DNA of 34,254 nt. Origin: Candidatus Gastranaerophilales bacterium (GTDB lineage: Bacteria; Cyanobacteriota; Vampirovibrionia; Gastranaerophilales; JANQFW01). The notes beneath the pieces are model-generated. The model was not told where the DNA came from and searched no databases. It worked only from the letters and a program-made list of their open reading frames with translations. A program made the translations under genes and the position numbers. The stretch is taken from contig JANQHM010000040.1 in assembly GCA_028282645.1 (NCBI GenBank), positions 1 through 34,254 of the forward strand, read 5' to 3'. Positions 16,758 through 29,116 of the stretch are shown one piece after another (position 1 is the stretch's first letter; each line of letters starts with the position of its first letter).

Positions 16758-16787
16758 ATAAGGAAGGCATATTATTTCCTGTTTTTA
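16758..16787 (+). terminator. Possible terminator after kdsB
   Basis: A short AGGAA (16761-16765)/TTCCT (16776-16780) stem is followed by GTTTTT. It sits in the 33-bp gap between kdsB and the convergent gene at 16785. The short stem makes it uncertain. Confidence 0.4.
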
Positions 16788-17336
16788 AAGTCCGCTTAAA
16801 AGCATAAGAGAAGCAAATCCGGCAATTACAGCCGTTACAACTTTGCCCCCTTTAATTTTAGTGAGTGATGGTTTTCCATCAGAATGAAAGGTATCAGCAA
16901 AAAAACCTTTTTCCCGTAAAAATCTATCACCACTTTTGTTGACATATTCATCTGTTTTAGCCCCATTTTCAAGGATTCGCTTTAAACCTACCGAGTTTTC
17001 AGGTCCTTCTGATGTCTTGACTATTTTATGACCACCAGGTAGTTTTTCATAAGTTTTTTTATAATATTCATACTCTTGAGCTCCTGTGTCCGGATTAATT
17101 ACTCTTTTAACATAATACAATGTTTTTTCATTTCCCTGCTTCATATATCTATATGTATCTGGATAGCTATTACTTGGCACAGCTATTGAATTTTCCGGAA
17201 GTCCTTCAATTCCAACCGGATTAAAGTATTTAGAATAAAGCTCTCCAGTATTACGATGAAAGTATACTCTGGTTAAATTATCTGAATCTCTTATTGGCAC
17301 TAAATAAGCTGGTCTCGTTGTTGTAGGTTCTGGCAT
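16785..17336 (-). CDS. Small repeat protein with C-terminal membrane helix (paralog 1)
   Basis: This 183-residue protein is unknown to me. It is the last of four related minus-strand genes. The soluble part is built of short Tyr/Lys/Gly beta-hairpin-like units (TYRYMKQGNEKTLYYVKRV, YEYYKKTYEKLPGGHKIV, KTDEYVNKSGDRFLREKGFF). The last 20 residues, KVVTAVIAGFASLMLLSGL, form a single hydrophobic tail helix with no signal peptide before it, so the protein may be tail-anchored. EGPENSVGLK...NGAK...FADTF aligns with paralog 3, and KTYEKLPGGHKIV with KTYNKLPDGFKIV of paralog 2. GGAGGAAAAGTGA precedes the ATG. The upstream spacer is homologous to the one before paralog 2, indicating tandem duplication. 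Confidence 0.7.
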   Translation of the reverse strand: MPEPTTTRPAYLVPIRDSDNLTRVYFHRNTGELYSKYFNPVGIEGLPENSIAVPSNSYPDTYRYMKQGNEKTLYYVKRVINPDTGAQEYEYYKKTYEKLPGGHKIVKTSEGPENSVGLKRILENGAKTDEYVNKSGDRFLREKGFFADTFHSDGKPSLTKIKGGKVVTAVIAGFASLMLLSGL

Positions 17337-17407
17337 TCACTTTTCCTCCTATTTATAAATAATCTAAAAAAAATCCTATAATAACTTCTAATACTCTTAA
17401 AACTCTA

Positions 17408-18046
17408 TCAGCCTCCGCCTAAGAGCGTAATAGCAGCCAATGCGACAAGCACAGTCGCTACAACTCTGCCCCATTTGGTTTTAGAGAATGATTTTCCGAT
17501 ATCATCACCAATACCTTCATATGTATTAGCAAATATTCCCTTTGATGTACGTTCAAATACTTCACCATGTTCATTCTGAACCATTTTATTTCCATTCCGG
17601 CTTGAGATTACTTTTAAACCTTCTGAGCTTGCTTCAGCAGCTTTCCGTACTGTTTTTTTTGTAATTGCTACAACATTATAAGGAAATTGATGAGTAGCTG
17701 CTGGGGTCTGATTTATTTTAGCTCCTCCTTCCTGAGGTAAGACTATTTTAAATCCATCAGGCAGCTTATTATAAGTTTTTTGTAGCAAAGTTCGACCGCC
17801 ATTTTCATATTTATAATAAAAACCTGTTTTTTTCTTTTCACCAATTTTTTCCCGTAAGGGAAAATAACCACTTTTGTTCTTCTGACATAGAGTTAAATCT
17901 CTTAGTTCAACCAATCTTCCTAAAAGATCTTCTGGTCGTGAATAATTTTTTTGATATAAACTCCTTGTTCCTCTCTGAGTGTATACTTTATTTCCATCTA
18001 TAGTTCTTCCTATTGGAGTCAAGTCTTCTCGCTTTACTGCCGGCAT
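17408..18046 (-). CDS. Small repeat protein with C-terminal membrane helix (paralog 2)
   Basis: This 212-residue protein of unknown function is the longest of the four paralogs. The N-terminal half has Tyr/Lys/Gly repeat units (GNKVYTQRGTRSLYQKNY, GFYYKYENGGRTLLQKTY). A central Pro/Gln/Ala segment follows, then another unit (GNKMVQNEHGEVFERTSKG) and the family signature IFANTYEGIGDDIGKSFSKT. The final helix is RVVATVLVALAAITLLGGG. It has no signal peptide and only one Cys. AGGAGGGGAATGA lies before the ATG. The spacer before it (GGAAGTTATTGCAGGATTTT and onward to ATAAATAGGAGG) is nearly the same as that before paralog 1. Nothing in the sequence indicates an enzymatic function. Confidence 0.7.
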   Translation of the reverse strand: MPAVKREDLTPIGRTIDGNKVYTQRGTRSLYQKNYSRPEDLLGRLVELRDLTLCQKNKSGYFPLREKIGEKKKTGFYYKYENGGRTLLQKTYNKLPDGFKIVLPQEGGAKINQTPAATHQFPYNVVAITKKTVRKAAEASSEGLKVISSRNGNKMVQNEHGEVFERTSKGIFANTYEGIGDDIGKSFSKTKWGRVVATVLVALAAITLLGGG

Positions 18047-18098
18047 TCATTCCCCTCCTATTTATAAATCTAAAAAAATCCTGCAATAACTTCCAATA

Positions 18099-18368
18099 CT
18101 AGCAAATACTATCAAAAAATACATAACCTGATGCTATCACAGCTAGAGCACCAAGCGTTCTGCCCGGGCATGCCTTAACCAAAGATTCACCAGTTTTACC
18201 GGCTAATGGCTTATATGTATTTGCAAACAAACTTCGCGCTTTTTGATATCTTGCACCATTTTTCATATATTCTTTAGCTCCTGTTTCCACGTTCCATCTT
18301 GACTTTATACCTACTGAATTTGCCGGTCCCCAATCTGTGTTTACGCCTAAAATTCCTAATAATGACAC
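18099..18368 (-). CDS. Small tail-helix protein (paralog 3, short form)
   Basis: This 89-residue protein corresponds to only the C-terminal half of paralogs 1 and 2. WGPANSVGIKSRWNVETGAK matches EGPENSVGLK...NGAK of paralog 1, SLFANTYKPLAGKTGESL matches GIFANTYEGIGDDIGKSF of paralog 2, and it ends in the helix RTLGALAVIASGYVFFDSIC. It starts with GTG at 18368, supported by GGAGGAGGAG 6 nt upstream. A complete MITE ends 16 bp upstream of the GTG, so the original N-terminal half or leader may have been displaced by the insertion. It could be a truncated member or a natural short form. Confidence 0.65.
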   Translation of the reverse strand: MSLLGILGVNTDWGPANSVGIKSRWNVETGAKEYMKNGARYQKARSLFANTYKPLAGKTGESLVKACPGRTLGALAVIASGYVFFDSIC

Positions 18369-18384
18369 AACATACTCCTCCTCC

Positions 18385-18490
18385 TATACTATTTCTAAAA
18401 TACTTTTCAGATTATTCAATCGTGTTAAACCTAATAAAGTAAACTAAACTCTGAAAAGAGTAATCTAAAATTTAATTTAGAACCTGTATA
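18385..18490 (+). repeat. MITE-like repeat, type E copy 1
   Basis: This 106-bp element has long imperfect terminal inverted repeats. The left end is TATACTATTTCTAAAATACT then TTTCAGATTATTC; the right end, read inverted, is TATACAGGTTCTAAATTAAA then TTTTAGATTACTC. The interior (GTGTTAAACCTAATAAAGTA and onward to CTCTGAAAAGAG) differs from type A but recurs at 32633 and 26801. It abuts the Shine-Dalgarno of the gene at 18099-18368. Confidence 0.85.
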
Positions 18491-18545
18491 TTAACCCCGG
18501 AATAAAAAATTTCTCATTAAAATATTTTTGAGTTGTATACTTCGC

Positions 18546-18581
18546 TTTATATATATAAAAACAAAAATATTCAAAAATTGC
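18546..18581 (-). promoter_or_regulatory. Conserved T-rich box D (minus copy 1)
   Basis: The minus strand reads GCAATTTTTGAATA then TTTTTGTTTTTATATATATA. The same box occurs on the minus strand at 19330 (and, less completely, 19230) and on the plus strand at 29335, 29829 and 30362. Here it lies between the terminator of paralog 4 and the MITE before paralog 3, reading towards paralog 3. A promoter or regulator-binding role is inferred from position and recurrence. Confidence 0.5.
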
Positions 18582-18619
18582 CTTCAATTTATAAAAAAAA
18601 TAAAAATAAAATTTTAATT

Positions 18620-18655
18620 ATAAAAAGAAATCGACTCCAAAAAATCGATTTCTTT
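18620..18655 (-). terminator. Rho-independent terminator of paralog 4
   Basis: A perfect 11-bp stem, AAAGAAATCGA (18624-18634) with TCGATTTCTTT (18645-18655), is followed on the minus strand by TTTATAATT after the stem T residues. It lies 35 bp beyond the stop of the gene at 18690-19115. Confidence 0.8.
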
Positions 18656-18689
18656 GGCTAGGATAAAAATTTAAATTCTATATAATTTA

Positions 18690-19115
18690 TTATATTTGCG
18701 TAGGATCAGGCTTTTTACCGCCAAAGAGCGTACCTAAGAGCAAACCGCCCGCGATTATACCGGCTCCTATAATACCGCCTTTTTGCCATTTACCAAGGTT
18801 TTTCCACCAACCGCCCTTTGCAGCGGTTTCAGTAGCTTCAGTTGCGGTTTTTTCTACATAACTTTTTGTATATACATCTCCACCTTTTAAGTAGTATTCT
18901 GTTTTTCTAAATCCATCCGCAGGATCAAGTATTCGAGCATACGCTCCTCCTTGTGGCTTTGATGATGTCTTTGTTACTCTTGTATTAAGACCTTCAGGTG
19001 TATCTATTTTGGTAAATTTTCTTTCAAAAATTTTACCATCCTTAGCGTAGGACTTAGATCCATCTTCTGCTATCGACCTGGTGTATCCTGCTGCATTTAT
19101 TCCATTTACTGGCAT
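18690..19115 (-). CDS. Small glycine-zipper tail-helix protein (paralog 4)
   Basis: This 141-residue protein of unknown function is the first gene of the small-protein cluster. Two Tyr/Lys/Gly hairpin units are visible: SYAKDGKIFERKFTKIDTPE at residues about 22-41 and RKTEYYLKGGDVYTKSYVEK at about 70-89. After a Thr/Ala/Glu linker and a Trp/Lys patch (GGWWKNLGKWQKGG), a glycine-zipper helix, IIGAGIIAGGLLLGTLFGG, spans about 114-132, ending with a short polar tail, KKPDPTQI. AGGAGG lies 9 nt before the ATG. It has its own terminator and two upstream copies of box D, so it is probably transcribed separately from the other three. It is more diverged than paralogs 1-3. Confidence 0.72.
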   Translation of the reverse strand: MPVNGINAAGYTRSIAEDGSKSYAKDGKIFERKFTKIDTPEGLNTRVTKTSSKPQGGAYARILDPADGFRKTEYYLKGGDVYTKSYVEKTATEATETAAKGGWWKNLGKWQKGGIIGAGIIAGGLLLGTLFGGKKPDPTQI

Positions 19116-19399: not shown

Positions 19400-19430
19400 C
19401 AAAATAGCCGCTAACGATATAGCGACTATT
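19400..19430 (-). terminator. Terminator of the glyS operon
   Basis: A 10-bp stem with one G-U pair, AATAGCCGCT (19403-19412) with AGCGACTATT (19421-19430), has an 8-nt loop. On the minus strand TTGTTT follows. It lies about 25 bp after the glyS stop. Confidence 0.65.
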
Positions 19431-19454: not shown

Positions 19455-21512
19455 CTAAAAAACTATTTTGCTAAAATCAGCTATTTTTGAGAATTTTAAT
19501 TTAAGATTACCCAGTAGTGCTATCCTGTTATTTTTGATTTTTTTGTCAGGATCCATTACCAGTACGTCATCAAAAAATTTTTGAATTAAAGGTATTGAAT
19601 CTTCAAGCTTTTTGACCAGCTCGTTATAGGTTATTGACTCTGTATCAATCCTAGAGACCGCATCCCATAATTCGCATTCTATATCCTGGGTAAACAAGTT
19701 CTTTGATACCTCTAAAGAGTATTTTTCGGATTTTATAATTCTGTGTACCCTGTTTGCACTTTCGTGGAAAAGGTTATAATTCTCTTTTTTAAGCAGATTA
19801 TCTAATATTATTAATCTTTCTAAATCGTCTTTTAAGTTTGCTAAAGGATCATTAATTTCTAAAACTGCATCAACAATGTCATATTTATAGCTGTCAGTTA
19901 AGTATATTCTTAATCTTTGGATTATAAATTCCCTTATACTCTTTTGTATTTTATCTTTATCATCAATTTTTAAAGGTATTACAGCCAAAGCTTTTTCAAT
20001 AAGTGCCGATAAGTTAAAGCATATATCTTTCTTTAATATTGTTGTGATTATACCAAGAGCTGCTCTTCTTAGGCCCAAAGGATCAGCGGAGCCGGTTGGA
20101 GATTTACCCAATGCAAAAACTCCGCAAATAGTATCAATTTTATCAGCAATACCGACTACCTGGCCGGTTATAGAGTCAGCAAGTTTACCGTCCGCGGATA
20201 GAGGGTAGTAATGTTCTTTTATACCTGTACATACTAAATCATTTTCGTTATCCAGCTTTGCATATTCTGCGCCGATGGAACCTTGAAGTTCTGTAAATTC
20301 AAACACAAGGCTGGTTACCAGGTCATTTTTACAGAGTTGCGCTGTTCTTTTTACTGACTGGATTGTTTTATTATCAAGTGATAATTCTTTTGCAATAAAG
20401 CCGGACAACTCTTCAATTCTCTTAGATTTGTCATAGAGAGTACCTAAACCTTTTTGAAATGTTATACCCTTTAAATCTTCTGACTTTGATTCTAAAGATG
20501 TCTTTTTATCTTCATTATAAAAGAATATAGCATCGTCAAGGCGTGCTGTTATTACTCTTTCGTTGCCTTTATTTATGTTCTCAAATTTATCACCTACATA
20601 GTTTGTTGTGGTTATAAAGTAGTTTAACAAGTTCTTCCGCTCTGTATCATAGACAGGGAAGTAACGTTGGTGCGTGGCCATAACCGTAATAATTACATCA
20701 TCAGGTATTTGAAGATATTTTTTATCAAAATACCCGACAGCCGCAACCGGCCATTCTACCATATAATTAACCTCTTGAAGCAAGTCTTTATCAATGGATA
20801 CACTGCCTTTTTCGGATTCTGCTGCTTTTTGAGCCTGTTTTTTTATTTCTTCTTGTCGTTTGTCGGGTTCTACTATTACGTTAACTTTTAGCAGGTCCTC
20901 TATATAGGTTTCTGATGATTGTATTTCAACCTCTTTAATCGGAGAAAACCTATGTCCCTTAGATATCTTAGATGATACAGCATTACCGATTTGTATTTTA
21001 ATCTCTTCTTTGCCCAGTATTGATACTATCCATCTTATGGGGCGAGAAAAGCGGATATCCAAGTCTCCCCATCTCATAAAATGTGAGCCCTGAAGCTTTA
21101 ACACACTTTTCGGAACTATCTCTCCAAGCACTTGTTTTGTTAACTGCCCTTTTTCTGTTATATTTGCAAACAGGTATTCTATCTTGCCTACTTTTTCTTT
21201 ATAAAAATCTTCTTTAGCTATATTATTTCTTTTAGCAAAGCCTTCACCGGCTTTTGTCAGATTGCCGTCTTTGTCTAATGCTACGTGAACAGGCGGACCT
21301 TTTACTTTTTTTGTTAAATCCGGCTGACATTCTGATATATCTTCTATTATTAAGGTTAATCTTCTTGGTGTGCCGTATGTTTGTATATTTTTATATTCTA
21401 TTCTGCTTTCTTCCAGAGCTTTAGAGGTTATTTCCCTTAATTGATTCATTGCTGACGGGATAAATTTATACGGAAGTTCTTCGGTTCCCAGCTCTAATAA
21501 ATAATTAACCAC
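19455..21512 (-). CDS. glyS: Glycyl-tRNA synthetase beta subunit
   Basis: This is the beta subunit of the bacterial alpha2-beta2 glycyl-tRNA synthetase, which recognises tRNA(Gly) while the alpha subunit (glyQ, not in this window) carries catalysis. It is 685 residues, typical of GlyS (about 690). Family landmarks are LLELGTEELPYKFIPSAM at the N-terminus, YGTPRRLTLII, KGPPVHVALD, FMRWGDLDIRFSRPIRWI, VMATHQRYFPVY, ARLDDAIFFYNEDKK, VGIADKIDTICGVFALGKSP, TGSADPLGLRRAALGI and FFDDVLVMDPD near the end. It starts with GTG at 21512, with AAAGG 8 nt upstream. It is the last gene of a six-gene operon otherwise made of iron-sulfur redox proteins, 49 bp after its neighbour, and is followed by a terminator. 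Confidence 0.97.
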   Translation of the reverse strand: MVNYLLELGTEELPYKFIPSAMNQLREITSKALEESRIEYKNIQTYGTPRRLTLIIEDISECQPDLTKKVKGPPVHVALDKDGNLTKAGEGFAKRNNIAKEDFYKEKVGKIEYLFANITEKGQLTKQVLGEIVPKSVLKLQGSHFMRWGDLDIRFSRPIRWIVSILGKEEIKIQIGNAVSSKISKGHRFSPIKEVEIQSSETYIEDLLKVNVIVEPDKRQEEIKKQAQKAAESEKGSVSIDKDLLQEVNYMVEWPVAAVGYFDKKYLQIPDDVIITVMATHQRYFPVYDTERKNLLNYFITTTNYVGDKFENINKGNERVITARLDDAIFFYNEDKKTSLESKSEDLKGITFQKGLGTLYDKSKRIEELSGFIAKELSLDNKTIQSVKRTAQLCKNDLVTSLVFEFTELQGSIGAEYAKLDNENDLVCTGIKEHYYPLSADGKLADSITGQVVGIADKIDTICGVFALGKSPTGSADPLGLRRAALGIITTILKKDICFNLSALIEKALAVIPLKIDDKDKIQKSIREFIIQRLRIYLTDSYKYDIVDAVLEINDPLANLKDDLERLIILDNLLKKENYNLFHESANRVHRIIKSEKYSLEVSKNLFTQDIECELWDAVSRIDTESITYNELVKKLEDSIPLIQKFFDDVLVMDPDKKIKNNRIALLGNLKLKFSKIADFSKIVF

Positions 21513-21561: not shown

Positions 21562-22686
21562 TTAAATTATTGCAGTAGAGAGAGAATGAACCTTCGGCTC
21601 TACTCTTTTTCTTCTTTTTAATAAGTCAACAAATGCTTCTAAACGAGTAATATAACCGGCTCGTCCCATATGTTCATCTAAAACAAGTGATAAAACAGGT
21701 ATATCCTCTTTACATCTCACGTTAGGCAAAATATTTTGAGCAACGATTTCCGGCATACAGGTAAACGGTAATAAATGTACAACTCCATCCGCCGAATGAT
21801 GTTTTCCTGCTAAAGCTACGTCTCCTATTGATTCAATTGCGTCACCGCCAACATCTCTTTTAAGAAAAGATCTAGCTGAACTGCGGGCTTTTTCTTCATG
21901 CGTTTTTCCAAACCTTAAAACAGAAGGCATTATAGAAGCTTGTACCCAATCGCTTAGATTAATTTGCCTGTTTACGTGCACTCCTAGTCGCCCAAGTTCT
22001 TTTTCTATATCAAGGTTAGAAAATTGATCAAGTACAACATAAACTTCTCCTACAAGATCTATGGTTACAATCTCCTTATTCTTATCTATAGGCGTTGATT
22101 TGATATATTTAATTGTATTATTTTTAGCTTTTAGAGCTTCTTTATAGCCAAGAGCAGCTTCTATCTCGCCTAAGCCTCTGAAGTAACGTTTATCCGCATC
22201 ACCCTCTTTTAATTCTCTTGCCCTGTAATACGCAAGTACTCTATCAACGTCATCGAGAATTTTAATTTTTAATAACGCCATGTTGATAGCCCTTATAAGG
22301 GTTATAGGATTTGCGTTTCCCGTAGCCTCTTTAAACTTGATATACAGCTCTTTTAACTTACCTTTATATAAATCAAAATTTATAAATTTAACATCATAGC
22401 CCAGGTCTGTTAAAGTAGTTCTTAACGAAGTACTATATTGGCCTAAACGGCAAATACCCGGACTATCAATCATTAACACTGCTTCTGCACCGTTTTCAAT
22501 AGCTTCCATATAATTACCAAGGACTAATTTATATGGAAAGCATACAGCTTCGGGGCTGTTAAGACTACCTAATTCCAGTGTGCGCTTGTTGTTATAGGGG
22601 GGTACAACTACCTCACCGCCAAGTATTTCTATGGCTGTACCAAGAGCTATATACAGTTTGCCCATATGAGGAAATGCAATTTTCAT
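21562..22686 (-). CDS. HgdB-like iron-sulfur protein (CoA-dehydratase superfamily), copy 2
   Basis: This 374-residue protein belongs to the HgdB/BcrC-like superfamily (2-hydroxyacyl-CoA dehydratase D component, benzoyl-CoA reductase and double-cubane proteins). Three well-spaced cysteines match likely [4Fe-4S] ligands: Cys49 (PEAVCFPYK), Cys79 (PGICRLGQY) and Cys310 (LPFTCMPEIV). The C-terminal motif DEHMGRAGYITRLEAFVDLL is shared by all three proteins of the set. It starts with AFPHMGKLYIALG. It aligns throughout with the gene at 23783-24910, so the two are paralogs. AGAGGT precedes the ATG. The usual ASKHA ATPase activase domain is not encoded in or next to this protein. The substrate is unknown; the proteins may act in low-potential electron transfer rather than dehydration. 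Confidence 0.82.
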   Translation of the reverse strand: MKIAFPHMGKLYIALGTAIEILGGEVVVPPYNNKRTLELGSLNSPEAVCFPYKLVLGNYMEAIENGAEAVLMIDSPGICRLGQYSTSLRTTLTDLGYDVKFINFDLYKGKLKELYIKFKEATGNANPITLIRAINMALLKIKILDDVDRVLAYYRARELKEGDADKRYFRGLGEIEAALGYKEALKAKNNTIKYIKSTPIDKNKEIVTIDLVGEVYVVLDQFSNLDIEKELGRLGVHVNRQINLSDWVQASIMPSVLRFGKTHEEKARSSARSFLKRDVGGDAIESIGDVALAGKHHSADGVVHLLPFTCMPEIVAQNILPNVRCKEDIPVLSLVLDEHMGRAGYITRLEAFVDLLKRRKRVEPKVHSLSTAII

Positions 22687-22708
22687 TATATAATTGACCT
22701 CTTATTTG

Positions 22709-23755
22709 TTACTCAACGCCCACAAGTTTTTTTTCTTCTTCTTTCTTGGGGACTTGTTTTTTAAGGCTATTAACAATACTAGTACGTTTTTTCCTGATCA
22801 ACATATCCGTGAATGCTTCTATTCTGGTAACAAAACCAGCTTCCCCGGTATGCTCATCCGTAGTTAAATTTAATAACGGCTTGTTAAATCTCTTTGCGTA
22901 GCGAGTGATTCTCTCTATCATAAGAGAATCAGGGCCACAACCAAATGCCGTAAGAGTAATTAAACCGTCAATGTTATTATCTTTTAGATAATATCCCGCT
23001 GCGCCTGTCATTTCATGTTCATTAGCCCAGTATAAAAGTGTATCAAGATTTCTAATCCCTTGCTCCATTTGTTCCGTAGTTAAATTATAAGCAGTATAAG
23101 CTTCTATATCTAATTGCTTAAGCTTTTTAAACATTTTCATGCTTACTTGCTCGTCATAGATATTATAGCCATGAGAAATCACGGCAACTTTTACCATGCC
23201 CTCTTTTTGTGTAGAGACAAGTGAAATTTTACCATTTATAGCATTTCTCATTGCAGTAGGTACATCAACACCGGATCTTGTCATTAGAGTAAAGTTATTC
23301 ATACACTCCCAGCCCGCTTTTGAGGCTTTTTTTATAAGCTTTTTATTTGTTATGCCCAAAGGCGCTACTGATTCGTATAAATATTGATAAAAACCTTGTT
23401 TAGGCTCTGATTTATCCAAAGTTGGCTCTATCAAAAGAAAGTTTTTATTTACAACGTTTCTGATTAAGTCAGGTAATCCTCTTAGCTTGGAACAATTATA
23501 AATTTTAGGTGCAATTGATTGAATGCTGGGTGAATAAATTACATCTATACCTTTATCAAGGAGGTTTAACACATGTCCTGCATATACTTTTACAGGTAGA
23601 CAAGTCTCGGAAACAACAAGTGAACTACCCGCAGAAACTAGTTTCTTTGTAGTTTTATCAGATAAAACAAGCTCTATTCCCAGTTCACTAAAAAATCCAT
23701 GCCAAAATGGATAGTAATCATAATAACTTAAAGCTCTTGGTATACCAATTTTCAT
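22709..23755 (-). CDS. DUF2229-like CoA-enzyme-activase-associated protein
   Basis: This 348-residue protein begins with the DUF2229 (PF09989-like) signature IGIPRALSYYDYYPFWHGFF and continues SELGIELVLSDKTTKK. Cysteines Cys52 (SETCLPVKV), Cys88 (IYNCSKL) and Cys273 (AFGCGPDS) occupy positions equivalent to those of the flanking HgdB-like proteins, and the ending TDEHTGEAGFVTRIEAFTDML matches theirs. In many anaerobes this domain is the C-terminal part of a giant activase that begins with ATP-binding BcrA/BadF domains; here it stands alone with no ATPase part. GGAGG lies 10 nt before the ATG. It lies 27-28 bp downstream of one HgdB-like gene and 22 bp upstream of the other. The three probably assemble; that is inference. 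Confidence 0.82.
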   Translation of the reverse strand: MKIGIPRALSYYDYYPFWHGFFSELGIELVLSDKTTKKLVSAGSSLVVSETCLPVKVYAGHVLNLLDKGIDVIYSPSIQSIAPKIYNCSKLRGLPDLIRNVVNKNFLLIEPTLDKSEPKQGFYQYLYESVAPLGITNKKLIKKASKAGWECMNNFTLMTRSGVDVPTAMRNAINGKISLVSTQKEGMVKVAVISHGYNIYDEQVSMKMFKKLKQLDIEAYTAYNLTTEQMEQGIRNLDTLLYWANEHEMTGAAGYYLKDNNIDGLITLTAFGCGPDSLMIERITRYAKRFNKPLLNLTTDEHTGEAGFVTRIEAFTDMLIRKKRTSIVNSLKKQVPKKEEEKKLVGVE

Positions 23756-23782
23756 ATTTATTTAACCTCCATAAAAATCAGC

Positions 23783-24910
23783 TTACGCTGTTTTTTTAGA
23801 TCTTCTACGTCTATTAATTAAATCTACGAAAGCCTCAAGTCTTGTCACAAGACCGGCTTTTCCTGTCATTTCGTCCATAGAGAATGATATTACAGGAATA
23901 TCCTCTAATTTACTGACATTAGGAAGAATACACTGCGTTACAATTTCCGGATTGCAGTTAAAAGGCCCAACGTGGATTACGCCGGCAATATTTTTATCAG
24001 CAGCATATATAACATCGCCTACAGATTCTAAACACTCTCCGCCAATGGCTCTTTTTATATATTTTTTAGCCATTCTTGCAGATCGGTCTCTATGAGATTC
24101 TTCTTTTTGCAAAAACCTGGGCATTAAGGTGTTGTTGCTCCAGTGAGAAAACATTATCTGCCTTTCGACTTCTACACCAAGCTTTCCAAGCTCTCTTTCT
24201 ATTTCCATATTGGTAAACGGGTCAAGTTGTACAAAAAATTCGCCCGTTAAATAAACCTTTAATATATCCTTTTTAGAATCGTGACTAACTTCATCATATT
24301 TTTTATTTATGTTTTTTAAAGCAGCTTTTAATTCTTTAATTGTATCTGCTTTATGTATTTCTTTTTTTGCATAATTATAAACGTTTTCTGCGCTGCCTTT
24401 TTGATATTCTCTCGGCCTTAGGTACAAAAGTTTGTTTTCAACTTCGTCCAGTGCATTTATCTTGGCTAATGCTATTCTTATGCCTCGAAGAGTTTTTAAA
24501 ATATTTGTGCTGCCTGTTGCATAACTGAATTTTTTGGCTACTTCTTTTAATTTGCCTTTATACATGTCAAACACAACCATTTCAAACTCATACCCGAGTT
24601 CTTTTAGTTTCGCTTCCGCCATTGTCGCATAATTGCCCAACCTGCAGCTGCCAGGCGCCTGAAACATTAACAAAACATTTGCACCTGATTCCAGGGCCTG
24701 GATGTAATTTCCTAAATTTAGTTTATATGGCAGGCAAACCGTTTCTATACTATGCCTTGTCCCTATTGTTAATGTTTCAGAATTATTCTCAGGGGGTAAC
24801 AGAACCTCTGCCCCCATTGTTTTTAGCATAGCACTCACCGGTATATATATGTTTCCCATATGAGGAAATGCAACAACTCTTTTTGATTTATACTTTGATG
24901 TTTTTTGCAT
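23783..24910 (-). CDS. HgdB-like iron-sulfur protein (CoA-dehydratase superfamily), copy 1
   Basis: This 375-residue paralog of the gene at 21562 has the start FPHMGNIYIPVSAMLKTMGA, Cys59 (IETVCLPYK), Cys89 (PGSCRLGNY) and Cys319 (GPFNCNPEIV), plus an extra Cys327 (TQCILPN) absent from the other copy. The ending is DEMTGKAGLVTRLEAFVDLI followed by a basic tail. Motif spacing is conserved between the copies, supporting binding of one [4Fe-4S] cluster per protein. The gene begins 3 bp after the ferredoxin stop with no obvious Shine-Dalgarno, so it is probably coupled to ferredoxin translation. The ferredoxin is a plausible direct electron donor. The reaction is unknown. Confidence 0.82.
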   Translation of the reverse strand: MQKTSKYKSKRVVAFPHMGNIYIPVSAMLKTMGAEVLLPPENNSETLTIGTRHSIETVCLPYKLNLGNYIQALESGANVLLMFQAPGSCRLGNYATMAEAKLKELGYEFEMVVFDMYKGKLKEVAKKFSYATGSTNILKTLRGIRIALAKINALDEVENKLLYLRPREYQKGSAENVYNYAKKEIHKADTIKELKAALKNINKKYDEVSHDSKKDILKVYLTGEFFVQLDPFTNMEIERELGKLGVEVERQIMFSHWSNNTLMPRFLQKEESHRDRSARMAKKYIKRAIGGECLESVGDVIYAADKNIAGVIHVGPFNCNPEIVTQCILPNVSKLEDIPVISFSMDEMTGKAGLVTRLEAFVDLINRRRRSKKTA

Positions 24911-24913
24911 AAT

Positions 24914-25117
24914 TTATTTTGTTACCAATTCTTTAAATTCTCCAGGTCCGCCAACTGTACATGCCTCAGGGCAAATACTTTGGCACGCTTGACAATCTAC
25001 GCATTCATTTGCGTTTATTTGATATACAGTATCTTTTTTGTATATAGCATCAACCGGACATGCAGTACTACACGTCCCACATCCGATACAATTTTCTTCA
25101 AGTATTTGTCTTGGCAT
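24914..25117 (-). CDS. 2[4Fe-4S] ferredoxin
   Basis: This 67-residue low-potential electron carrier has two complete cluster motifs, CIGCGTCSTACP (from residue 10) and CVDCQACQSICP (from residue 39), as in clostridial-type ferredoxins. It is slightly longer than the classical 55-residue form because of a C-terminal GGPGEFKELVTK. TGGAG lies 7 nt before the ATG. It lies 18 bp after the radical SAM gene and 3 bp before an HgdB-like gene. It could donate electrons to either the radical SAM cluster or the HgdB-like set. Confidence 0.95.
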   Translation of the reverse strand: MPRQILEENCIGCGTCSTACPVDAIYKKDTVYQINANECVDCQACQSICPEACTVGGPGEFKELVTK

Positions 25118-25135
25118 TTGTGCGCTCCATTTTAG

Positions 25136-26722
25136 CTAGACACCAACAGTTTCTTCTTCTTTAATTTCATCGTTAAGCTTTTTAACGGCGCTTAAATCTT
25201 TACCGCAGCTACAACATCCTGCTGTTTCGCATCCGCCGTGTATACCACCGTGAGGTGTTTTACTGCTGCAAAGAACGTTTCTGTCGTGATAATATTCGCC
25301 AGGTAGTGGGAATAATGTCATATAGTAATCATTTTCCCAGCTTTCATTGGTAATTTTTTCAACTTTTTCTGCGTATTCGTCTATTTGTGACATAATTTCA
25401 GGTTTTGTCAAATAGTCAGCAGCACCTCTATGAGTTTCATAAGGTTTAAATTTCTTATAATAACCTCTAAGCACCCAAGGTCTGTCAACAATCATACAAG
25501 GTCTAAGCATGTTGCCGTCGTATGGCGCACCTTTTCTGACAGCAGTCATAAACGGACTTGCCAAGGCCTCTGTTAATGTTGAATCTTTAACATTATGTGT
25601 TGCAAGATGTACAAAAGTACAAGGCTCAACATCACCTTTGGCATTAACGTGAATATATTGTCTTCCGCCTGCAATACAACCCATCATTTCAGGACCGTCC
25701 CCCCAGAAGTCAACGGTCATCATTGGCAGTGTATTTCTTGCATTGTATAGTGCTTTTTTTATATCTTCTCTTTGCTCAGCAGTAGGCATTACAGAAGGAT
25801 CAGGATTTTCACCCACCGGTACGTAGTGGAAACCCCAGGTCCACAAGCTGCCTTTGTCTGATAACATTTTCATATACTCATCAGAAATAGTTTCTTCAGT
25901 ATTTTCTTTTGTCATAGTCAAACTTACACCAAAAAAGATACCAGCTTCTTTAAGACGGTCCATTTTTTCCATAACCATCTTAAATGTACCTTTCCCTCTT
26001 ACTTTGTCGGTTGACTCTTCCCAACCGCCTAAACTAAACATAGGTGCTACGTTACCAAGCTTTTTAAGCCTTTCAATCCTCTCATCAGTTAATAAAGACC
26101 CATTTGTAAATGCCAGGAATATACAATCAGGATACTCCTCAGCCAAGTCTAAAAAGTCCTTTCTGATAAATGGCTCACCGCCTACAACAGGCATTATATG
26201 AATACCTAATTCATCTCTTGCTTCGTCAAAAAGTTTTTTCAATGTTTCATAAGACATATCTTCTTTTTGCTCGTAATTATGAGCCCAGCAGCCAGCGCAG
26301 GTAAAGTTACACTTTTGAGTAACACTTGTCAACAGAACTGTTGGCGGGTAGAACCCGTTATTTTCAAAAAATCTTGCACGTTTTCTCTGGTTATCACCAT
26401 AGTACCCGTGAACAAAAAAGTTTAGTAAAAACTTATTTCTACAGTTGGGATGTAAATCGTTAATAATTCTCTGCCACCAGGCTAAATGCGGGTGATCAGT
26501 TTCAAACAACCATCTCATTCTTTTGGCGTGCCTTACGGACCCTTCTGACCCGGCTATCTTTTCAAATAACTTTGTTAAATTAATAAGATTTCTTTTACTA
26601 GAAGTTCCTATTAAGTTAACTATTTGCCCAACTACAAATTCCATACCTGCTTGTTTAAGGTGATCAATATAACCTCTGCCGCCTCTTGCCTTCCACATTA
26701 AATCTTGGGGTAAAACTCTCAT
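25136..26722 (-). CDS. Radical SAM protein with SPASM-like C-terminal region
   Basis: This 528-residue enzyme is expected to cleave S-adenosylmethionine reductively. The canonical CxxxCxxC motif is Cys138, Cys142 and Cys145 (TQKCNFTCAGCW). Supporting motifs are MPVVGGEPFIRKDFLDLA (the GGEP strand) and FLAFTNGSLLTDERIERL. Further on, MGCIAGGRQYIHVNAKGDVEP followed by CTF resembles SPASM or HpnH-type auxiliary regions. The last 50 residues are His/Cys-rich (GGIHGGCETAGCCSCGKDL), a possible extra metal site. The first 120 residues are a helical extension before the barrel. AAGGAG lies 9 nt before the ATG. It is the first gene of the operon, with a MITE right end 79 bp upstream carrying a promoter-like CTGAAA-16-TATATA. 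The substrate is unknown. Confidence 0.88.
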   Translation of the reverse strand: MRVLPQDLMWKARGGRGYIDHLKQAGMEFVVGQIVNLIGTSSKRNLINLTKLFEKIAGSEGSVRHAKRMRWLFETDHPHLAWWQRIINDLHPNCRNKFLLNFFVHGYYGDNQRKRARFFENNGFYPPTVLLTSVTQKCNFTCAGCWAHNYEQKEDMSYETLKKLFDEARDELGIHIMPVVGGEPFIRKDFLDLAEEYPDCIFLAFTNGSLLTDERIERLKKLGNVAPMFSLGGWEESTDKVRGKGTFKMVMEKMDRLKEAGIFFGVSLTMTKENTEETISDEYMKMLSDKGSLWTWGFHYVPVGENPDPSVMPTAEQREDIKKALYNARNTLPMMTVDFWGDGPEMMGCIAGGRQYIHVNAKGDVEPCTFVHLATHNVKDSTLTEALASPFMTAVRKGAPYDGNMLRPCMIVDRPWVLRGYYKKFKPYETHRGAADYLTKPEIMSQIDEYAEKVEKITNESWENDYYMTLFPLPGEYYHDRNVLCSSKTPHGGIHGGCETAGCCSCGKDLSAVKKLNDEIKEEETVGV

Positions 26723-27173: not shown

Positions 27174-27722
27174 TTAGTCAATACTATAAATGCAGCCGCA
27201 ATAACTTTGTCGATACATTTTATATTTACGAGACAGCTCAGTACTTTTTTGAAAACCGTTGTTTTTTTTAAAATTCGCTTGTAAGAAGCTTAAATTATAC
27301 TTTTTAGCTAATTCAATGCCTATTTTATTTATTATTTCAGCATTTTTATGGGGACTAACCGTTAATACTGTTGTAAATGTATCAAATCCACTTTTGCAAG
27401 CGTATTTAGCCGTTTCTTCCAATCTTATTTTATAGCATATCTTGCAGCGTTTACCTCCTTCTTGACAGTCTTCCAGGCCTTTAACCCGCTCAAACCAAGT
27501 ATCAACCGAATCTTCTTTTAAAATCGGGGGATACTTTTTTATCTCTGAAAAAGATATTAGTTCTTCCAGGCGCGTTTGATATTCATCCAGTGGATGAATA
27601 TTAGGGTTATAAAAAAAGCCATGCGGGATAAAGTTATTATCTGTTAAATATTGAAATACATATGTGCAACAAGGGGCACAACATGTATGAACCAGTATAT
27701 TTTTCTTTTCTGTTTTACTCAT
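27174..27722 (-). CDS. queH: Epoxyqueuosine reductase QueH
   Basis: This is the cobalamin-independent enzyme that reduces epoxyqueuosine to queuosine in tRNA anticodons. It is 182 residues from the ATG at 27722, close to characterised QueH (about 190); a GTG 15 nt upstream is an alternative start without better support. The cysteine pattern is diagnostic: VHTCCAPCC (Cys14, 15, 18, 19), an internal RCKICYKIRL and a C-terminal SYCGC, providing cluster and metal ligands. Other family motifs are FFYNPNIHPLDEY and TVLTVSPHKN. No queuosine synthesis genes are nearby, so salvage or distant genes must supply the precursor. It is downstream of the VKOR-DsbA gene on the same strand but 132 bp away. Confidence 0.93.
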   Translation of the reverse strand: MSKTEKKNILVHTCCAPCCTYVFQYLTDNNFIPHGFFYNPNIHPLDEYQTRLEELISFSEIKKYPPILKEDSVDTWFERVKGLEDCQEGGKRCKICYKIRLEETAKYACKSGFDTFTTVLTVSPHKNAEIINKIGIELAKKYNLSFLQANFKKNNGFQKSTELSRKYKMYRQSYCGCIYSID

Positions 27723-27790
27723 TTTGTAATACCGCACTATAAGTATTCTGGTGCAAGATTAAATTTTAGATTCTCTTATGTTTATTTTAT

Positions 27791-27886
27791 TTCGATAGAA
27801 TACCCGGACCCCTGGGGCACTAACTTATGCAAAGCAAAGCTTTGCGCTTAAAGTTACGGGGATGATACCTCGTCGAGGAGGTTCAT
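27791..27886 (-). repeat. Hairpin repeat C, copy 2 (encodes the VKOR-DsbA tail)
   Basis: On the minus strand it starts ATGAACCTCCTCGACGAGG and ends GGGTATTCTATCGAA, matching copy 1 at 14761-14857 apart from a 12-base shortening of the left hairpin and an expanded GGGGTCC near the right end. The nested TAACTT/AAGTTA and GCAAAG/CTTTGC stems are kept. Its first 33 bases are the last ten codons and stop of the upstream gene. Confidence 0.9.
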
Positions 27887-29116
27887 TTGTTTTAAACTTT
27901 TTTCAACTTCTTGTTTAAGCTCTTCATAAGGCATAATTCCTTCATATTTTTTCATACCTATATAAAAAGTCGGAGTAAGCTTTATTCCCATTTTAACCCC
28001 TTTACCTGCTTCTTTTTTTAATTTTTCCAAATTACCAGGGTCGTTTATATAAGATTTTAGTTTAATAATATCAAGATTTAAACTTTTTGCAAGAATTAAC
28101 AGGTTTTCATCACTTAAATTTTTCTGATTTTTAAATAACAAGCTTACCATATCCCAATATTTTCCTTGCTCTTTTGCTGCACGTGCGTATAATGCTGCTT
28201 TGCAACTATATTTATGGCCTGTGCTTTTTACATAAGGATTACAATTTGAGCTTAATGGGAAGTCGTAATGTAAAATCATTATATTATCAAAGTCTTTAGC
28301 CAGTTTTATAAAGTATCCGTTTAATGTAGCGCAGTAAGGGCATTCAAAATCAGAATAATCTTTTATTATTAAAGCAGGTTTTTTTGAACCTAAAATGTTT
28401 CCTAAATTTTCTGTTTCTGTAATGAGTTTTATTGATGTTTTAAGTTCTTGTTCAGGCTTTAAAATCAATATGTTACTTTGGCTTGTAAATATTAATACTG
28501 CAATAGCGCAAAGAATTCCAAATATAACAAGATTTCCTAATATTTTATCTGCTAGAACACTAACAGTATCTTTTTTGAAGTTATTTAAATGAACAATCAG
28601 TTTATCGTCAATTCTGGTAACAATAAACAGGAACAGGTTTACAAAATAAGTGGCAAAACATAGAATACAAAGCTTTTTGATAACTACATAAGAAATAAAT
28701 GCTAATATTATTGATATAAGCAATGAAATAAGAGACAAAATGCATATAAAACTGGTCGGATGATTAAAAGATTTAAATAATTTAAACTTTTTAAAAGGAA
28801 ATACGCTAATTCCAAAAATTAAAGTATAAAAAAATAGTCCATAAAGGGCCAATGGAATACCTAAAAAGTGTGAAAAATTTGTTTTTGCTACACCATCGCA
28901 GTCTATATAGTCATTTACGCTGCAAAAACTTTTAGTTACAACTTCTCCAAAATTAACATCAAAGAAAATAAAAGCTAATTTTAAGCTTACTAAAAAACCT
29001 GCAATGGAAAATAAAGGAATTAAATAGCGTACAATTAACTTTTTAATGCTGTTATTCTCTGTTTGAATCGTATCAGCAGGATTATTTGCTGTTTTTTGTC
29101 TTTTTTTCTTGCCCAT
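27854..29116 (-). CDS. VKOR-DsbA fusion, disulfide-bond formation protein
   Basis: This 420-residue membrane protein combines the two halves of a periplasmic disulfide-forming system. Residues about 28-210 are a vitamin K epoxide reductase-like domain with five or more membrane helices, loop cysteines Cys65 and Cys73 (CSVNDYIDCDGVAKTNFSHF) and the quinone-proximal CxxC at Cys150/Cys153 (KKLCILCFATY). Residues about 245-410 are a thioredoxin-fold DsbA-like domain with CPYC at Cys259-262 (SDFECPYCATL) and the cis-Pro loop LTPTFYIG. VKOR linked to a thioredoxin-like domain is known in cyanobacteria and other bacteria. The last ten residues, MNLLDEVSSP, and the stop are encoded by repeat C rather than by the ancestral gene. 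The Shine-Dalgarno is weak (AAGG about 12 nt upstream). Confidence 0.93.
   Translation of the reverse strand: MGKKKRQKTANNPADTIQTENNSIKKLIVRYLIPLFSIAGFLVSLKLAFIFFDVNFGEVVTKSFCSVNDYIDCDGVAKTNFSHFLGIPLALYGLFFYTLIFGISVFPFKKFKLFKSFNHPTSFICILSLISLLISIILAFISYVVIKKLCILCFATYFVNLFLFIVTRIDDKLIVHLNNFKKDTVSVLADKILGNLVIFGILCAIAVLIFTSQSNILILKPEQELKTSIKLITETENLGNILGSKKPALIIKDYSDFECPYCATLNGYFIKLAKDFDNIMILHYDFPLSSNCNPYVKSTGHKYSCKAALYARAAKEQGKYWDMVSLLFKNQKNLSDENLLILAKSLNLDIIKLKSYINDPGNLEKLKKEAGKGVKMGIKLTPTFYIGMKKYEGIMPYEELKQEVEKSLKQMNLLDEVSSP

Follow-up and report, generated by a model that had tools for sequence, protein, structure and literature searches.

A putative split BCR/HAD-type reductase with an unlinked activase and a co-inherited radical SAM enzyme in a Candidatus Gastranaerophilales bacterium

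Several described systems pair reductase subunits of the benzoyl-CoA reductase/2-hydroxyacyl-CoA dehydratase (BCR/HAD) superfamily with an activase. HadBC/HadI, HgdAB/HgdC and the class I benzoyl-CoA reductases (BzdNO, MbdONPQ) have the same fold, three-cysteine cluster sites and an ASKHA activase, and the double-cubane cluster protein and its reductase (DCCP/DCCP-R) include a homologous activase. PlsA/PlsR and Ger (plasmalogen synthase/glycerol ester reductase) form vinyl or alkyl ethers by the anaerobic reduction of lipid acyl esters (PMC9702350, PMC12838417, PMC13274423) and combine two activation domains with two reduction domains (PMC12838417, PMC13274423). Additional PlsA homologs without an activation domain, the role of which has been called unclear, occur in Bacillota, and Tes/Mss radical SAM lipid-coupling enzymes occur alongside PlsA/Ger-type reductases (PMC13274423). 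A further arrangement, found for example in Monoglobus pectinilyticus, is a cassette of three stand-alone proteins annotated by PGAP as acyl-CoA dehydratase activase-related protein, 2-hydroxyacyl-CoA dehydratase and acyl-CoA dehydratase activase, here abbreviated D-H-A. We analysed a related locus in a 34,254-nucleotide stretch of DNA from a Candidatus Gastranaerophilales bacterium (contig JANQHM010000040.1), the whole of which is referred to as the window. Its minus strand carries, in order of transcription and with intergenic gaps of 3-49 bases, genes for a radical SAM enzyme (rSAM1), a ferredoxin, an HgdB-like subunit (H1), a stand-alone DUF2229 protein (D), a second HgdB-like subunit (H2) and GlyS (Table 1). 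We consider it probable that this operon supplies the catalytic half of a split BCR/HAD low-potential reductase that depends on ATP and has an unlinked activase, in which D is common to H1 and H2 and the D:H1 form belongs to a conserved radical SAM pathway.

D, H1 and H2 are members of the BCR/HAD superfamily, as indicated by their fold, the three cysteines of each subunit and the presence of an activase partner. Cysteines 59, 89 and 319 of H1 were invariant in a 54-row alignment of H, as were cysteines 52, 88 and 273 of D in a separate alignment of 54 rows, and H2 carries the equivalents of the three conserved residues at positions 49, 79 and 310. An earlier note on this DNA had described the five open reading frames and glyS, all of which were present, close together on the minus strand, and had drawn attention to equivalent cysteines and to a common C-terminal motif (DE..G.AG..TR.EAF). 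The motif was confirmed in the three subunits, where it reads DEMTGKAGLVTRLEAF, DEHTGEAGFVTRIEAF and DEHMGRAGYITRLEAF, though it is a trait of the superfamily and is also seen in the DCCP structure. AlphaFold models of D and H1 were confident (mean pLDDT, the predicted local distance difference test score, 92.2 and 91.8, respectively), and their strong matches in the PDB, at 9-16 % identity, were to DCCP, HadBC, BzdNO and Mbd only; these proteins accounted for 16/16 matches of the H1 model at E<=0.001 and for the 17 best matches of the D model. Among the fold matches, DCCP ranked first for D and near the top for H1, but it is one gene product with 12-16 % identity, whereas the window D and H are distinct proteins. 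A single-sequence search of the PDB with D gave no match; profile and fold searches with D did. The family assignment and iron-sulfur character proposed in the earlier note are thus supported by Pfam, fold and cysteine conservation.

An ordinary 2-hydroxyacyl-CoA dehydratase or benzoyl-CoA reductase, serving amino-acid fermentation or aromatic degradation, would be in keeping with the Pfam HGD-D and activase families and with the fold matches to HadBC and benzoyl-CoA reductases. The window subunits are, however, far more divergent than those enzymes. Scores fell far below the cut-offs of the NCBIfam equivalogs for benzoyl-CoA reductase subunit C (benz_CoA_red_C, 15.8 bits versus 421) and DCCP (double_cubane, 17.9 versus 350), and neighbours with roles in CoA metabolism (CoA-transferase, electron transfer flavoprotein, acyl-CoA dehydrogenase) were not recognised at the loci read, where the partner genes encode radical SAM enzymes, a PHP-type hydrolase and a lipid kinase. 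We regard an ordinary dehydratase or reductase of this kind as improbable; the proteins are remote from characterised ones, the co-occurring genes that were found have no place in aromatic degradation or amino-acid fermentation, and the set does not appear to be a standard dehydratase.

The operon contains no ATPase, and the earlier note had called the set ATPase-less and suggested that three related subunits might form an iron-sulfur complex independent of an ATPase and partnered by a radical SAM enzyme. It had also named in advance a co-conserved activase gene elsewhere as contrary to that view. We looked for such a gene and found a canonical acyl-CoA-dehydratase activase (A) on contig C1 of the same genome (G000:C1:22621-23625), the D and H genes being on contig C15; a missing ATPase is ruled out, and the description holds for the operon but falls for the genome. 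The activase passes NCBIfam TIGR00241 (190.9 bits; cut-off 125.4), and its nearest PDB homologs are MbdQ (8.5e-43), HadI (3e-35) and HgdC (3.8e-35). Its Cys130 and Cys169, which we take to be the cluster-ligand positions of HgdC, lie within the motifs VCAAGTG and GRCGVFAE.

We surveyed 117 genomes, comprising the window genome, 47 genomes of a sister family from the same order and 69 others. D and the activase occurred together in 48/48 genomes of the order, nearly every one of which had only one activase of this type; outside the order, D or the activase was present in just 5 of the 69 genomes, with both in three of these. The activase and D/H genes lay at separate places in relatives as well as in the window genome, and ran consecutively as A-D-H in one relative from the phylum (G013). 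Elsewhere, 80 loci were returned for D (Bacillota, Thermotogota, Calditrichota), 67 of them exactly D-H-A and the remainder mostly near-variants, including three D-H-A-H. A contig labelled Candidatus Gastranaerophilales (L158, 1-3867) also carries an adjacent Clostridia-type D-H-A cassette, which points to a second system in the order or else to mis-binning of the contig. The adjacency of three paralogs in an operon devoid of an ATPase, with rSAM1 and a ferredoxin in the same unit, is consistent with the three-subunit complex. Against it stand the co-conservation of the activase across the order and its position beside D and H in most loci of other phyla, as well as the histories of the subunits themselves.

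Two sets of these genes were distinguished in the sister family. Set A comprises a stand-alone D copy (Da, 47/47 genomes) and an HgdB2-like gene at another place, while set B (20/47 genomes) is a cluster of eight genes in the order Db-PHP-HgdB1-like-rSAM2-SLBB export protein-lipid kinase-rSAM1-PAP2. Window H1 grouped with the H of set B and window H2 with the H of set A in the H tree (support 100/97 for both), and in the D tree window D was placed outside Da and Db, before their split (99/88). By gene phylogeny, each window H is the predicted ortholog of a different H subunit of the sister family, in which D is duplicated. The most parsimonious account is a single ancestral D that worked with two H subunits, a state kept in the window, and whose subsequent duplication provided each H with a D of its own. 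Alternative heterodimers, D:H1 and D:H2, are made more likely than a D:H1:H2 complex by this duplication history and by the single activase of this type in almost all genomes of the order. We propose that D may act as the common partner of H1 and H2; most likely, the three proteins make up an ATP-powered low-potential reductase in two versions. Given that relatives have H1 and H2 at separate loci, with a correspondingly duplicated D, the ATPase-independent complex of three subunits is largely refuted and we give it very little credence. The redox system that the earlier note had envisaged does appear to be real, but it would be driven by an unlinked activase and probably consists of two reductases with a common subunit.

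The radical SAM partnership suggested in the earlier note was borne out by co-occurrence. rSAM1, rSAM2 and the PHP hydrolase displayed identical presence and absence, being found in the same 21 of the 117 genomes: 20 from the sister family and the window genome, which carries rSAM1 in the window, rSAM2 on contig C197 and PHP on contig C5. The sister-family rSAM1 orthologs were 62-65 % identical to that of the window. Db tracked these three genes in the same 20 sister-family genomes, the window D being instead the pre-duplication copy, and a YegS-type lipid kinase and PAP2 phosphatase were also found in those 20. Presence of set B was mixed within at least six genera, which also hold genomes without any of rSAM1, Db, rSAM2 or PHP, and Fisher's exact test within the sister family gave p = 1e-13, uncorrected for kinship. 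The eight-gene cluster was seen in most set-B genomes read, and the cluster members tested were wholly missing from sister-family genomes outside the 20. Examples of the cluster include G088:C2, G003:C8 and G075:C5, with others at L097, L101, L110 and L223-L234, often beside a Wzz-type gene. rSAM1 itself has a CxxxCxxC motif at residues 138-145, auxiliary cysteines at 349, 368 and 409 and a cysteine-rich C-terminal tail at 485-506; the tail, noted previously, was kept in orthologs (C485, 498, 503, 504 and 506) but not in outgroup radical SAM proteins.

Two observations favour the alternative that rSAM1 is an unrelated neighbour and the set a generic D-H-A reductase only. An rSAM1-family gene lay near D-H-A in 0 of the 80 named loci, through which alone rSAM1 with D/H was covered beyond the phylum; 27/27 relatives with set A only likewise had no close rSAM1 ortholog. 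Set against this, the profiles of rSAM1, Db, rSAM2 and PHP match across the 117 genomes while being mixed inside genera, and the four genes sit in one cluster in relatives. We hold mere adjacency to be highly improbable, and judging from these gene distributions the functional link between rSAM1 and the D:H1 reductase appears to be real. rSAM1 matched Tes at 1.3e-5 in residues 132-262 only, which correspond to the generic radical SAM core, and SkfB scored better. Relatives of rSAM1 with 33 % identity occur on enterobacterial plasmids, namely in E. albertii (L117, 2254-3633), where the gene adjoins a hypothetical gene, and in a Klebsiella plasmid match. Reductase genes were not found beside the plasmid relatives in E. 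albertii and Methanosphaera, and a literature search for DUF2229 together with radical SAM returned nothing.

Comparison with described systems placed the window proteins closest to the stand-alone cassette. D, H and the activase were 36, 34 and 51 % identical to their Monoglobus counterparts (199, 207 and 335 bits), whereas the best scores against fused PlsA-like proteins were 106, 47 and 172 bits, the latter sequences being Listeria and Collinsella homologs and not the characterised proteins. On these scores the nearest relatives appear to be stand-alone D, H and A proteins. The cassette comprises the same three proteins with the same invariant cysteines, and versions with a second H exist; it differs in that its activase is adjacent, whereas that of the window genome is unlinked, two H genes flank one D, and rSAM1 and ferredoxin lead the operon. 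This bears on the alternative that the locus is a PlsA/Ger ortholog split into separate genes and making ether or vinyl-ether lipids. The three domain types are indeed those of PlsA/Ger (PMC12838417, PMC13274423), PlsA homologs without an activation domain are on record, and the sister-family cluster includes the lipid kinase and PAP2 genes in perfect co-occurrence. In PlsA/Ger, however, activation and reduction domains are fused, while in the window genome every domain is its own gene, and the sequences are clearly more distant than those of the stand-alone cassette. Lipid data for this lineage were not found, and a literature search on ether lipids in it returned nothing relevant. Identity with PlsA or Ger fails, at the level of sequence, on both features tested (fusion and proximity), and we consider a split ortholog possible but doubtful.

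Under the preferred explanation of a split reductase, reduced ferredoxin would pass one electron to the homodimeric ASKHA activase, and a D:H heterodimer would receive it from there on its [4Fe-4S] clusters, driven by ATP hydrolysis on the part of the activase; each subunit would bind its own cluster through three cysteines. The D:H pair would then reduce a recalcitrant bond of its substrate, and the use of one D with alternative H1 and H2 would yield two reductases from one activase. The operon ferredoxin is the presumed electron donor to the activase; its gene was seen in the window operon only and in none of the relatives' loci that were read. The D:H1 reductase would act in a pathway with rSAM1, rSAM2 and the PHP-type metallohydrolase, to which the sister family would add the lipid kinase and PAP2 phosphatase. 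A lipid substrate is suggested by the presence of these last two enzymes in relatives and by the domain set shared with PlsA/Ger. By analogy with the ester-to-(vinyl) ether reduction of those enzymes, a lipid-linked substrate is the likeliest guess, and lipid acyl-ester reduction the leading guess for the chemistry. More tentatively, rSAM1, rSAM2, PHP and D:H1 may constitute an undescribed biosynthetic pathway, in non-photosynthetic relatives of cyanobacteria, for a membrane lipid, or a lipid anchor of an exported polysaccharide, of unusual chemistry (ether-linked, cross-linked or with some other C-C modification), the reductase sharing D and the activase with a second, more widely conserved D:H2.

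Several observations weigh against parts of this interpretation. The proposed D:H pairing draws on superfamily likeness and on the duplication history. The count of H subunits is also not final, given that the window genome contains the C-terminal part of a third HgdB-like protein, truncated at the contig end (G000:C55:5595-5816; L221), and so probably holds three or more H subunits alongside one known D. PAP2 and lipid kinase orthologs were not detected in the window genome, so that the lipid argument transfers incompletely, and the Bacillota D-H-A cassettes had no consistent neighbours, lipid-related ones included. Finally, the sister-family cluster includes polysaccharide-export genes (the SLBB/Poly_export protein and often Wzz), which would also fit a glycan or glycolipid as substrate. 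The sole DAGK-family match in the window genome was an NAD kinase, which was rejected as a lipid kinase candidate.

The features of the transcription unit are listed in Table 1. The last gene, glyS, is a passenger that did not accompany these genes at the relatives' loci read, and a weak terminator-like hairpin plausibly marks the end of the unit. Just upstream of the operon and on the same strand, queH (epoxyqueuosine reductase) adjoins a VKOR-DsbA fusion (window 27174-29116). Four tandem short open reading frames at 16785-19115, with a related core of the Y.K.G.R..R.K..FA.T type and C-termini that are hydrophobic, resemble a small paralogous family. Photosystem I genes were found in 48 genomes of the phylum sample, but in neither the window genome nor the listed members of its order, from which we take the host to be a non-photosynthetic member of the Cyanobacteriota.

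Table 1. Features of the rSAM1-glyS transcription unit, with positions in the window
Feature	Position	Strand	Remarks
rSAM1, radical SAM/SPASM-type enzyme, 528 amino acids	25136..26722	-	Pfam Radical_SAM and SPASM
2[4Fe-4S] ferredoxin, 67 amino acids	24914..25117	-	Pfam Fer4
H1, HgdB-like catalytic-type subunit, 375 amino acids	23783..24910	-	Pfam HGD-D, 4.7e-9, above cut-off
D, single-copy stand-alone DUF2229 subunit, 348 amino acids	22709..23755	-	Pfam DUF2229, 2e-50
H2, HgdB-like paralog, 374 amino acids	21562..22686	-	Pfam HGD-D, 2e-4, below cut-off
glyS, glycyl-tRNA synthetase beta	19455..21512	-	Last gene of the transcription unit
Terminator-like hairpin directly 3' of glyS	19403..19430	-	Consensus scan, weak

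Stand-alone DUF2229/HGD-D reductases are common in anaerobes, and we found no assignment of a substrate to them in the literature. The lineage described here amounts to a natural experiment, with one activase and one D that was at first shared and, through a later duplication, provided a separate partner for each H. A perfect presence/absence profile links one such reductase to rSAM1, rSAM2 and the PHP hydrolase, joined in the sister family by lipid-phosphate enzymes. As far as the searched literature shows, the pathway containing rSAM1 and D:H1 is undescribed, and its gene set is now defined. In sum, the function of these reductases becomes a testable question with a defined set of genes, and an unusual glycolipid or membrane lipid may prove to be involved.

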